40,700 nt of DNA from an uncultured Brachyspira sp. (GTDB lineage Bacteria; Spirochaetota; Brachyspiria; Brachyspirales; Brachyspiraceae), in NCBI GenBank assembly GCA_944392715.1, contig CALXXQ010000173.1, positions 1 to 40,700 of the forward strand, given 5' to 3'. The translations under genes and the position numbers were made by a program. Below, piece by piece: positions 31,866 through 37,368 of this stretch (the first letter of the stretch is position 1; the number at the start of each line of letters is the position of its first letter). The notes beneath the pieces are model-generated. The model had not been told where the DNA came from and searched no databases. It was given only the letters and a program-made list of their open reading frames with translations.

Positions 31866-32531
31866 TTATTCTATCAAATATTTATCTTCCAAAACTTTTA
31901 AAGGCTTACTGATTTGCTTAGCTATAAGTCCTACAAAAATAGCAGCAATAATAGTTCCTTCCCTAACCCCTTCCAAATGTCCTATATATATTAAAACTGT
32001 AATTATAGAAATTAAAACTAATGATACATCAAAAGCTATTTTTGTATTTCCAAACTTTACAGGAAATATTTTGCATATTGCCAATACTAACCCTTCTCCA
32101 GGAGTTGTAATTAATTTTGCCATTACCTCTATACTTATACCTATACCAACTAGAATTATTCCAGCTACACATAATATCCATTGCTGAAGATAATTACTAT
32201 ATGTTATATCCTTTATTAAATATTGAGAAAAATCTATCATTATTCCAAATAAAATTAATGCTGGTATTTGAAATAATTAAAATAAATCATATTTCTTTCT
32301 AAGAAGAAGTATTTGCACCAATATAAAAATAAGATTAATTATAATAGTAGTCTCTCCTACTGACAAACCTGATATATAGCTTGCCACATATGGTACACTT
32401 GAAATTGGAGAAGTTCCAAGCGATGCCTTAATAGAAAAAGCTATTCCTAAAGACATAATAAAAAGTCCTATTAATAATATTATACATCTCTTAAAAAAAT
32501 GTTTTTTGAAAATATTAGTATTAATTCCCAT
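31866..32531 (-). pseudogene. YczE/YitT-type membrane protein gene broken by an in-frame stop
   Basis: Five to six hydrophobic helices. The first part (84 residues from ATG 32531) has FFKRCIILLIGLFIMSLGIAFSIKASLGTSPISSVPYV, the opening of COG2364 YczE-like membrane proteins. A TAA at 32279-32277 stops it after RKKYDLF. The same frame continues at once: LFQIPALILFGIMIDFSQYLIK to the end at 31866 (VGLIAKQISKPLKVLEDKYLIE), with no frameshift. A CAA-to-TAA change would explain it, restoring about 221 residues. The second half has a late ATG at 32240 but no first membrane half. GGAG precedes ATG 32531. Likely an inactivated transporter of unknown substrate in an operon with marR; a sequencing error would also fit. 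Confidence 0.75.
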
Positions 32532-33566: not shown

Positions 33567-35372
33567 ATGTTCAGCACAAATAATAAATTGATAGAAAATA
33601 TATCAGAAGAATTTAATATAGAAAATAATGAAGCCAATAATATAATTGAAAAACTATTTTCTAAAATATCAGAATCAATATTTAATAAAAATAGATTCTA
33701 TATGGATAAATTAGGAATAATAAGTATAGATGATAATAATAATATAATATTAAATAATGAAGATGAAAATTTTGATGAATCATTAGAATCAATAAATCTT
33801 ACAAATAATAATATAAAAAATATTTTCTTAGAAAAAACTATATATAAAAGCATATTCAAAAATATAAAAGATATTTCAAAAGATGATAATGTATATATAG
33901 AAAATTTTGGTACTTTTTCAAATGACGGAACTATAAAATTTGAAGCTGATAATTACTTAAAAAACAAAATAGAAAAATTAAATGATAATGAAATAGTTGA
34001 AGATATATTAGATGAACTAGACAGCAAAATAAAAAATAATAAAGAAAATATAGAAATAAAAAATGATGAGACTTTAGAAGAAGTTGTAGATAATAAATCA
34101 ATAGATGATAATGTTATAGGAAATATATGGAAAAATAAAACTTATAATTCTATAGATTTAGGAAGCATGATAAAAAATCTAAATGAAAAAGAAAATAAAC
34201 ATGATGAAGATAATATAAAAAATGATAATAATGTAAATAATACAGAAGAAGATAATGAAGAATCATCAAAAATAGAAGAAGACAATATTAAATCAGAAAA
34301 TAATGATTATCCAGAAATGAAAGAGTATACAAAAGATGAATTATTAAATGTTAATAATTTTGATAAAGAAGATTTGATATCTGAATCATCTAATAATATG
34401 GAAGTTCAAAAAGATAATGAAAAAAGTGATTTGGAAAATAATAAAACAGTATATGATGATAATAATAATTATCCAGAAATGAAAGAATATACAAAAGATG
34501 AATTACTAGATATTAATAATTTTGATAAAAAAGATTTACAAGATTCAAATAATATTAATGATGATTTAAAAAATTTAAAAAATGAAGAAAAATTAGAAAA
34601 TGATACTATATCTTCAATAGAAGAATTGCTAAATATAAAAAATAATCAAAAAACACTAAACACTAATATTAAAAAACTAGGAAGAAAAAATATGGAAAAA
34701 AAATCGAATAACCAAACAGGATTATTGTCGGGTATTATAAAAGTAGCCTGCATAATAATATTCATACTTATAATAGGATTATTTATATCTATTTATTTTA
34801 ATAGCAATAAAGTTGTTTCAAGTAATAATGTTGAAAATCAGAAACTTTATGATATAGTTAATATATATTTTAATAAAATAAGTTCTGTAAATTTATCATA
34901 TATAACTTCAAAAGATATGTATTATTGGGATATAGCAAAAACTTTATACGGAGATGCCACATATTGGCCTTTAATATATGCATATAATAGTGAAAAATAT
35001 AAAATAAGCAATATTATAAAAAAAGGAAGCAGCATATCATATAGGAATATACCTGATTTTAATTCTATGAGAGAAATAAAAGATTTGAATAATACATTAT
35101 CAAAATCTTATATATATGTTTATCCTATACTTATTAATGATAAAAAAACAAATCATGCTTTATGGAGTTTAAAATTAGCTGCATATTATGATTTGAATGT
35201 ATTTAAAAATAATGCTAATATGATACCTAAAGAAACATATCTCAATATATTAAAAGATAATAATGCCATAAAAACTACATATAATGAAGTTATACAATAT
35301 GGGCAATTAAGTGAAAATATGTTTTTATCATTTTTGGATTTAGTGAAAGATAAATTAGGAATTGGAAAATGA
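33567..35372 (+). CDS. Fusion protein: two HU-like domains, acidic linker, TM helix, LysM domain
   Basis: 601 residues. Residues 5-62 (LIENISEEFNIENNEANNIIEKLFSKI, RFYMDKLGIISI) and 82-135 (NIFLEKTIYKSIFKNI, DDNVYIENFGTFSNDGTIKFEADNYLKNKI) follow the HU/IHF plan of two helices and beta arms; IENFGTF mirrors the HU G-F-G-x-F motif. Residues 137-375 are an acidic Asn/Glu/Lys linker with a 24-residue repeat (247-270 and 301-324). A membrane helix spans about 386-411, preceded by basic residues, which places the N-terminus in the cytoplasm. Beyond it, residues 450-500 (YYWDIAKTLYGDATYWPLIYAYN) match LysM, a peptidoglycan-binding domain. It is joined to nnr by an ATGA overlap. Nucleoid-to-wall tethering is inference. 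Confidence 0.75.
   Translation: MFSTNNKLIENISEEFNIENNEANNIIEKLFSKISESIFNKNRFYMDKLGIISIDDNNNIILNNEDENFDESLESINLTNNNIKNIFLEKTIYKSIFKNIKDISKDDNVYIENFGTFSNDGTIKFEADNYLKNKIEKLNDNEIVEDILDELDSKIKNNKENIEIKNDETLEEVVDNKSIDDNVIGNIWKNKTYNSIDLGSMIKNLNEKENKHDEDNIKNDNNVNNTEEDNEESSKIEEDNIKSENNDYPEMKEYTKDELLNVNNFDKEDLISESSNNMEVQKDNEKSDLENNKTVYDDNNNYPEMKEYTKDELLDINNFDKKDLQDSNNINDDLKNLKNEEKLENDTISSIEELLNIKNNQKTLNTNIKKLGRKNMEKKSNNQTGLLSGIIKVACIIIFILIIGLFISIYFNSNKVVSSNNVENQKLYDIVNIYFNKISSVNLSYITSKDMYYWDIAKTLYGDATYWPLIYAYNSEKYKISNIIKKGSSISYRNIPDFNSMREIKDLNNTLSKSYIYVYPILINDKKTNHALWSLKLAAYYDLNVFKNNANMIPKETYLNILKDNNAIKTTYNEVIQYGQLSENMFLSFLDLVKDKLGIGK
34305..34538 (+). repeat. In-gene 72-bp repeat coding for 24 residues, two copies
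   Basis: Copies at 34305-34376 and 34467-34538, 162 bp apart, encode YPEMKEYTKDELL followed by (N/D)(V/I)NNFDK(E/K)DL. They lie in the acidic linker of the HU/LysM fusion. Such duplicated units could vary in number between strains. Confidence 0.75.
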
Positions 35373-36910
35373 AAGTTGTAACTACAGAAGATTTAATTAA
35401 TATAGATAAAAAGACAATAGAAAAAATACCTTCCGTGCTTCTTATGGAGCATGTAGCAAGCGAGATTTTTTATCTTTTATTAAAGAGACATAGAAAATTA
35501 TTATATACTAAAACTGTGTATATTTTTTCATCTGTTGGGGGAAATGGAGGAGACGGACTTGCTATAGCTAGGTATTTAATAAAAAATGGATATGATGTTA
35601 AAATCTATATTACAGGAAATCTTGATAGAGTTAATAAGGATACTTATGCTAATTTTAATATATTAAAGTCAATGCATGTAGATGTTAATTATTTAGGTAA
35701 TGAAGAAGATGTTTTATCTGCTGTAAATACAATAGAGCCAAAATCTATAGTATTAGACTCATTATTTGGAACAGGCGGAAACAGACCTTTGGAAGGAATA
35801 CAAAAATTATTAGTGGATAATCTTAATAAATTAAATGTTCTTAGAATAGCCATAGATATACCTTCTGGATTAGCTTCAAAAATTAATGATTATGATAATA
35901 TAAATACTTGCTTTAAAGCACATGAAACTTATACAATATGTTTTGCCAAGGATATATTCTTTTTATATAGCACTAGAGAATATATAGGAAGGCTATTTAC
36001 AATAAAATCTATATTTCCAAACGATATATTAGATAATTGGGGATATAAAGCCAAATTAATAGATTATAATGAAAAAATAAATATAGATAGAAATGCTTTT
36101 TTCAGCAAAAGAGAACAGGGAATGCTTGCTATAATAGCTGGAAGCAATAATTATATAGGTGCTGCTGTTTTGGCTGTAAATGCCGCTTATAGACTTGGTG
36201 TTGGATATATAAGGCTATATGTGCCAAATGGAATAGTTAAAAATATTAGAAATGCTATAATGCCTTCTATGCCTGAAGCGGTTATTATAGGAGTAGGAGA
36301 AGAAAATCAAAAATGCTTCACTGAAAATGATATTGATATAGTAAATGATATAAATAGAAGCGATGCATGTATAATAGGTTCAGGGATTGGCAGAAATATG
36401 TCTACAGAAGTTTTTGTAAACAGTATATTAAAACAAATAAATATACCTACTGTTATAGATGCCGATGCTTTATATTTGATGTTTGAAAGTACATTCAATG
36501 AATTAAATTATAATTTTATATTAACACCTCATATATACGAATTTGAAAAGATTACTCAAATAAATAATAAAGAAGCATTAGAAAATCCTTATGAAGCATT
36601 ATTAAAATACAGACAAAAAACAAATGCCTCAATAATATTAAAAGATGCCATAAGTTTTTTAATGTATGATAATGATATATATATAAATTATAATCCTAAG
36701 GAATCTATGGGAAAAGCTGGTATGGGTGATGTTTTCGCAGGATTTATAGGAGCATTACTTGCTAGAAAGCTAAATATATTAGATGCTGCTAAGCTAGCTT
36801 TGATTATACAGTCTAAATCTTTTAATATATTATCAAAAAAGTTTGGAAATGATTATATTCAGCCTAAAGATTTAGCAAATATTTCATATAAAATACTAAA
36901 AAGGATATAG
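35369..36910 (+). CDS. nnr: Bifunctional NAD(P)H-hydrate epimerase / dehydratase
   Basis: Repairs hydrated NAD(P)H. 513 residues. N-terminal YjeF-N epimerase domain (1-230): GGNGGDG (57-63), LDSLFGTGGNRPLEGI and IDIPSGLAS. C-terminal dehydratase (about 240-513), ribokinase-like: IIAGSNNYIGAAVLAVNAAYRLGVGYIRL, ACIIGSGIGRN, VIDADAL, TPHIYEFEKI (usually TPHPGE), and the catalytic GKAGMGD (448-454) with Asp454. Overlaps the previous gene by ATGA and continues to a small membrane gene six bases later. Housekeeping repair enzyme; its place beside the HU/LysM gene may be incidental. Confidence 0.93.
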   Translation: MKVVTTEDLINIDKKTIEKIPSVLLMEHVASEIFYLLLKRHRKLLYTKTVYIFSSVGGNGGDGLAIARYLIKNGYDVKIYITGNLDRVNKDTYANFNILKSMHVDVNYLGNEEDVLSAVNTIEPKSIVLDSLFGTGGNRPLEGIQKLLVDNLNKLNVLRIAIDIPSGLASKINDYDNINTCFKAHETYTICFAKDIFFLYSTREYIGRLFTIKSIFPNDILDNWGYKAKLIDYNEKINIDRNAFFSKREQGMLAIIAGSNNYIGAAVLAVNAAYRLGVGYIRLYVPNGIVKNIRNAIMPSMPEAVIIGVGEENQKCFTENDIDIVNDINRSDACIIGSGIGRNMSTEVFVNSILKQINIPTVIDADALYLMFESTFNELNYNFILTPHIYEFEKITQINNKEALENPYEALLKYRQKTNASIILKDAISFLMYDNDIYINYNPKESMGKAGMGDVFAGFIGALLARKLNILDAAKLALIIQSKSFNILSKKFGNDYIQPKDLANISYKILKRI

Positions 36911-36915
36911 ATAAA

Positions 36916-37368
36916 TTGCCTAGAGAAGTTTATGACCCTAAAGAAAAAGAATTAGAATTTTATGCTAAAAGAAAAATAAAACATCCTGCCCCAAGAAAGG
37001 AAGTAAGTATATTTGCAAAAAAATGGTTTATGTTTTTATACGGGACTTTTTTAACTTTGGTTGTAATAGGATTATTGCTTTATAAAAAAGGATTTTTCAA
37101 TAATATTCCTTATTTTGATATTTTTAAAACTAAAACAAATGTAATAGTAAAAATCAATAATATAGATTTTCTTAACGGAGCTATTATAACTACTATAGAG
37201 CTTGAAAATTCTAGTTATACAAATTCAGAAAATATAGAAATACTTAATGCCAGCTATTCATTATATAGAAATAGAAAATTAATATTTTCAGGACAAAATT
37301 CATTTTATAATATAAGATTCCCATTAGGGCAAAGAATAGGATTTAATCTTAATTTTCCAAACAATTAG
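36916..37368 (+). CDS. Small membrane protein, probably shortened by in-frame TAG
   Basis: 150 residues. Basic N-terminus (KRKIKHPAPRKE), one membrane helix (about 36-56, WFMFLYGTFLTLVVIGLLLY), then a small beta-rich domain (VIVKINNIDFLNGAIITTIELENSS; ASYSLYRNRKLIFSG). TTG start at 36916, with AAGGA about ten bases before. The frame stops at TAG 37366-37368, but goes on in phase for 32 more codons (WKQANRLQLILQFDNNLVKTNQ) to TAA 37465-37467, just before the terminator. Probably a nonsense-interrupted or readthrough C-terminus. Last gene of the HU/LysM-nnr run. Family not recognised. Confidence 0.65.
   Translation: MPREVYDPKEKELEFYAKRKIKHPAPRKEVSIFAKKWFMFLYGTFLTLVVIGLLLYKKGFFNNIPYFDIFKTKTNVIVKINNIDFLNGAIITTIELENSSYTNSENIEILNASYSLYRNRKLIFSGQNSFYNIRFPLGQRIGFNLNFPNN

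Follow-up and report, generated by a model that had tools for sequence, protein, structure and literature searches.

A predicted membrane-anchored tandem HU-fold protein with a diverged LysM domain in Brachyspira and its spirochaete relatives

HU proteins, the chief DNA packagers of bacteria, are dimers, and the connection between chromosome and peptidoglycan is usually indirect in bacteria. In Bacteroidetes, HU-CCDC81 proteins with a transmembrane (TM) helix and a SPOR domain were reportedly described by Burroughs et al. in 2017. Among spirochaetes, the LysM protein BB0323 of Borrelia is required for cell fission (PMC5462797). Here, we analyze a protein that brings such parts together. It is encoded in a 40,700-nucleotide stretch of DNA from an uncultured Brachyspira sp. 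(contig CALXXQ010000173.1, positions 1 to 40,700), referred to below as the window; named homologues likewise place the contig in Brachyspira. The searchable literature on HU-LysM, HU-CCDC81, and Brachyspira HU contains no description of an HU-TM-LysM architecture; the architecture is real, is conserved in spirochaetes, and is apparently so far undescribed. A sequence-only reading of this DNA had already proposed HU-like, membrane, and LysM segments in one chain. New here are a family that extends across the phylum and is mostly accompanied by an overlapping free HU gene, the lack of any detected free HU in Brachyspiraceae, and the loss of the DNA-gripping arms.

Domain layout of the window protein

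The gene (33567..35372, + strand) is an ORF of 601 aa with same-locus orthologues across Brachyspira, and it encodes, in order, tandem HU domains, an acidic linker, a membrane helix, a LysM domain, and a helical domain. It thereby combines an N-terminal HU, one TM helix, and a C-terminal LysM in a single ORF, the features by which the spirochaete HU-TM-LysM family is defined in this analysis. HU1 spans residues 4–78 (33576..33800, +; PF00216, AlphaFold2 (AF2), and hhalign) and has a shortened arm. HU2 spans residues 82–140 (33810..33986, +; AF2 and hhalign), carries a YIENFGTF motif, and has its arm deleted. These boundaries are close to the HU/IHF-like segments proposed earlier at about residues 5–62 and 82–135. 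PF00216 matches residues 4–56, scoring 23.5 bits for the whole protein against a curated cut-off of 22.4; with only the N-terminal 144 aa as query, the score rises to 33.4 bits (E 5e-8). AF2, run on 15 aligned HU pairs, gave a confident two-HU model (pLDDT 86.9, pTM 0.83). In this model, HU1 comprises two helices (4–16 and 20–39) and a short three-strand sheet (44–46, 50–54, and 60–63), and HU2 a long helix (83–104), three strands within 109–127, and a final helix (129–140); as modeled, the two together resemble one HU dimer. Comparison with HU profiles by hhalign gave about 96% for HU1 and for HU2, and the HU core positions G50, F69, G115, F117, and F125 are invariant in the alignment of homologues. 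Foldseek searches of the PDB returned HU from E. coli, Bacillus, and Thermotoga, at probabilities reaching 0.96 across some 54 residues, with E > 0.1. The longest match, over the whole length, was to a Mycoplasma mobile gliding-motor subunit (9io5; TM 0.68), with the best, still weak, E-value of 0.17. It was set aside as a lead only; PMC11864180, on the GliD globular domain, names no HU protein, histone, or DNA binding. Because the Foldseek E-values are weak, the evidence for the HU fold comes from the Pfam match and the AF2 model.

The HU pair is followed by an acidic, low-complexity linker, delimited by composition (residues 141–373; 33987..34685, +), with a net charge of −32 over 233 residues. 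The repeated unit that the sequence-only reading had noticed in it was recovered by repeat alignment as two copies of a 23-residue motif, YPEMKEYTKDELLNVNNFDKEDL within residues 247–275 (34305..34391, +) and YPEMKEYTKDELLDINNFDKKDL within residues 301–329 (34467..34553, +). The unit copies are identical at 23 of 34 positions, and the linker halves self-align with a score of 142 versus a maximum of 102 among shuffles. This genome encodes at least two further long acidic proteins with the motif core, MKEY[ST]x[DE]ELL, which is absent from shuffled sequences (20,000 trials each). The sharing would be explained if these proteins had a binding partner in common, and the core is possibly a shared binding motif. 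The two further carriers of the longer form (Y)P[ED]MKEY[ST]x[DE]ELLD, both long, acidic, and apparently disordered, lie on contigs G000:C187 (L108:672-3452 and L109:2-1816) and G000:C166 (L110:1-1287); one of the two is a membrane protein that seems to be divided between contigs, with a part on each of two.

The membrane helix was correctly placed at residues 386–411 (34722..34799, +). Hydropathy peaks at 3.05 at residue 393, the most hydrophobic stretch beginning between residues 385 and 393. The N-terminal flank is basic, the helix is conserved in the alignment, and no signal peptide was seen in the 601-aa protein. With this topology, the two HU folds would lie in the cytoplasm as a built-in HU pseudo-dimer on one chain, and the long acidic linker, with its binding-type motifs, would lead to the single membrane helix.

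The LysM domain (residues 444–498; 34896..35060, +) had been proposed at 450–500. The proposal stands by homology to LysM-bearing relatives, although PF01476 gave no direct match in the window protein and a Brachyspira-only C-terminal profile found no LysM in the PDB. Against the LysM-bearing relatives, a C-terminal profile built from Brachyspira aligns with 97.9% probability (E 4e-13) across both the LysM and the conserved helical segment behind it (residues 505–565; 35079..35261, +; profile homology). Two homologues of the C-terminal domain match PF01476 (2.7e-8 and 3.3e-6). In L027, from the sister-family genome G026, PF00216 (1.4e-7) and PF01476 (2.7e-8) are found in a single 467-aa ORF. 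A mixed profile matched solved LysM proteins in the PDB, the best at 8.7e-6. These data suggest that the window protein carries a diverged LysM. The AlphaFold prediction of the C-terminus has a pLDDT of 48, too low to bear on this assignment, with 30 residues at pLDDT 70–90. No part of the alignment is better conserved than the LysM and helical columns, and both domains are probably periplasmic, on peptidoglycan.

Downstream, an nnr-like gene for a putative NAD(P)H-hydrate repair enzyme (35369..36910, +) overlaps the stop of the HU-TM-LysM gene with its start (ATGA), an order shared throughout Brachyspira and also by one sister genus (G044). A small single-TM protein follows at 36916-37368 (+) and is conserved in sister genera too (L066, L067, and L068). 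On the other side, adjoining ORFs of 124 and 84 aa at 31866-32531 (−) resemble halves of a single membrane protein, a split that may reflect gene breakage or faulty assembly. A promoter scan gave no excess above shuffled sequences.

Conservation in Brachyspirales and the search for free HU

The sequence-only reading had made conservation in related genomes a test of the architecture, and that conservation is found. The C-terminal part is present in 31/31 Brachyspirales genomes and in seven other spirochaete families; within the order, HU is fused to it in all but one genome. The HU part lies at the same locus in all 26 Brachyspira genomes. The HU and C-terminal parts are on two contigs in G017 and separated by an assembly gap in G024, and the frame is interrupted in G007; what looks like a broken gene in Brachyspira sp. 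G79 is an assembly gap of Ns. Two other genera of Brachyspiraceae (G042 and G044) encode tandem HU, TM, and LysM-like parts in one ORF, and the G043 copy is cut by a contig end. G025 has a TM-LysM-helical protein of 310 aa without any HU, together with two free HU genes (5e-20 and 6e-17). In a clade that includes B. pilosicoli and B. catarrhinii, four HU-like units, arranged as two pairs, sit on the same membrane protein (L020-L025, L042, L044, and L045).

A six-frame PF00216 search (E up to 1) of 29 Brachyspiraceae genomes and G026 detected no convincing free HU; the leftover matches are weak, partial, and in unrelated frames. A profile of free spirochaete HUs gave no confident match in the same genomes except to the fused protein, with G044 HU1 aligning over nearly the whole profile. 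Across the 29 sampled Brachyspiraceae genomes, no HU-fold protein besides the fused one was found, and extreme divergence may account for part of this apparent absence of free HU. HU is present in 89/96 other sampled spirochaete genomes, so its loss is rare yet not unique; seven non-Brachyspirales spirochaetes (G046, G092, G094, G100, G103, G109, and G112) have no HU match at E 0.001. We do not count as evidence a Fisher test of HU absence (p 4e-22), which takes no account of relatedness. ParB was found in 31/31 and YbaB in 29/31 Brachyspirales genomes, showing that other DNA organizers exist in this order. Brachyspiraceae thus offer a natural experiment: a large family in which a free HU gene was not found and the sole HU fold detected belongs to an armless protein bound to the membrane.

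Relatives in other families and the origin of the tandem

HU matches inside long frames revealed a single HU followed by a TM helix and a LysM or LysM-like domain in seven families outside the order, represented by G028, G036, G037, G040, G051, G053, and, as one family, G075/G104/G138/G187/G266; the LysM calls come from Pfam in G028, G037, and G053, and from a profile or visual inspection in the others. Seven of these genomes have a free HU gene that overlaps the HU-TM-LysM start by 4–32 nt (14 nt in G040; 11 nt in G075, G104, G138, and G187; 4 nt in G028; up to 32 nt in G053). The free HU gene of G036 also overlaps, with an uncertain start codon, and in G037 and G051 no free HU gene lies next to the HU-TM-LysM gene. 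The gene directly upstream of the HU or HU-TM-LysM genes in G028, G037, and G051 (L100, L104, and L105) is adenylate/guanylate-cyclase-like. Long-frame HU matches in G032, G116, G126, G125, and G045 were excluded as a different, soluble HU-fused protein without a TM helix. L086, L087, L088, L091, and L093 encode proteins of about 220–245 aa whose N-terminal region is conserved ('YSGSLI') and whose C-terminus is a canonical HU; no membrane helix is seen in them.

The overlap of the two genes suggests a fixed partnership, and because HU dimerizes, a heterodimer of free HU and HU-TM-LysM is a reasonable expectation; such a heterodimer would hold DNA at the envelope. The Brachyspirales tandem looks like a fusion of this overlapping pair into one gene. 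When aligned by hhalign with both putative ancestor HU profiles, HU1 and HU2 give E-values within a factor of 2; neither has a clear ancestor assignment, and so the fusion is something that we infer.

Loss of the arms, candidate roles, and comparison with known systems

The relatives outside Brachyspirales have HU domains of pI 9–10.5 whose arm bears an NP-type motif. After the turn glycine, they have 32 residues with 5–10 basic ones, versus about 12–22 residues with 0–1 basic in the window protein. Basic residues are absent from its HU1 loop, its HU2 loop of about 12 residues contains one, and hhalign places a gap of about 20 residues in HU2 exactly at the arm. The window protein thus has no long basic beta-arm for minor-groove binding, and its HU pair has a net charge of −10; Brachyspirales as a whole have an acidic pair with arms that are either short or absent. 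The Brachyspira protein is therefore unlikely to bind the minor groove in the canonical way, and weak or indirect contact with DNA is possible. The sequence-only reading had offered two roles: a DNA-to-wall tether, and a membrane-bound protein that kept the fold and lost DNA binding. For the window protein, the missing arms and acidic pair favor the second, if canonical binding is meant; the first fits the relatives, in which the basic arm is kept and a tether is plausible.

Accordingly, arm loss and acidity lead us to rank an adaptor above a tether for Brachyspira, with the tether left as the likely role in relatives. The overall account that we favor, if only narrowly, is that the window protein is an envelope-anchored HU-fold protein derived by fusion of the gene pair. 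The Brachyspirales head would then have lost both its basic charge and its arms, and Brachyspiraceae would have dropped the free HU gene. The Brachyspira protein would act mainly as an adaptor that binds a protein partner, or DNA weakly through the fold body.

The strongest competing account, which we consider unlikely, is that the Brachyspira protein is a true DNA-to-wall tether whose armless pair still binds DNA, perhaps through the fold body or by four-HU avidity, and so secures the nucleoid at the wall. Its status as the sole HU-fold protein found in Brachyspiraceae, the near-complete alignment of G044 HU1 to the free-HU profile, and the intact basic arms of the relatives all fit this account, as does the positive charge kept by some head domains: HU3 of the four-HU protein L020 is net +4, and net charge alone says nothing certain about DNA binding. 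Against it stand the loss of arms in both halves, the acidity of the window pair, and the presence of ParB and YbaB as other organizers. An extension of the tether idea to the phylum, in which a free HU/HU-TM-LysM heterodimer is the spirochaete chromosome-to-wall anchor and the fused form has replaced free HU in Brachyspiraceae, leaving the sole HU fixed to the wall, strikes us as doubtful. If the relatives' protein does bind DNA, one polypeptide would provide a direct link between chromosome and peptidoglycan, and nucleoid anchoring in spirochaetes becomes testable with one or two genes.

We judge it improbable that the protein is an HU-CCDC81 member acquired from Bacteroidota, its SPOR replaced by LysM, with the chromosome-partition role predicted for that clade. 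The tandem HU, TM helix, and wall-binding-type domain recall that clade, and most family members match PF18175 weakly; the four-HU protein L024 passes its cut-off (41 bits vs 35), and G044 lies above that of PF14908 (27.6 vs 26.1). The window protein, however, reaches 16.3–25 bits against the PF18175 cut-off of 35, its N-terminal 144 aa fall below the cut-off of HU-CCDC81_bac_2, and PF00216 scores better. No SPOR match was found in the window protein, which has a LysM-type domain by homology instead. Single canonical HU forms with the same C-terminal domain occur elsewhere in the phylum, suggesting a local origin. The earlier proposal that LysM replaces SPOR in HU-CCDC81 is thus not established; the phylum distribution points instead to descent from the spirochaete HU and HU-TM-LysM gene pair. 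Least probable of all is a peptidoglycan or division factor whose LysM and helical domain do the work above a vestigial or merely dimerizing HU head, as the HU-less protein of G025 and the strong conservation of the C-terminal columns might suggest, since the invariant HU core and the duplicated pairs of one clade indicate that the head is kept under selection.

Compared with HU/IHF (PF00216), the window protein shares the fold, the two-unit arrangement, the GxF turn, and HU-like helices, but it is a tandem fusion that is acidic, has lost its arms, and has a membrane anchor and an attached LysM. With Borrelia BB0323 it has in common a periplasmic LysM in a spirochaete. A Borrelia-type genome (L107:1-1122) encodes a 373-aa, lipoprotein-like LysM protein without HU, probably BB0323 itself from its size and LysM position; it matched the C-terminal profile at the LysM level, and the kinship goes no further. 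The spirochaete HU-TM-LysM proteins (for example, G040 L082 and G053 L085) share HU, TM helix, LysM, and helical C-terminus with the window protein but have a single basic HU with an arm and mostly a separate, overlapping free HU gene. HU-CCDC81 proteins with TM-SPOR resemble it in the tandem HU, the membrane helix, and a wall-binding domain outside; they belong to another phylum and carry SPOR in place of LysM, whereas the window protein has an armed single-HU relative in its own phylum.
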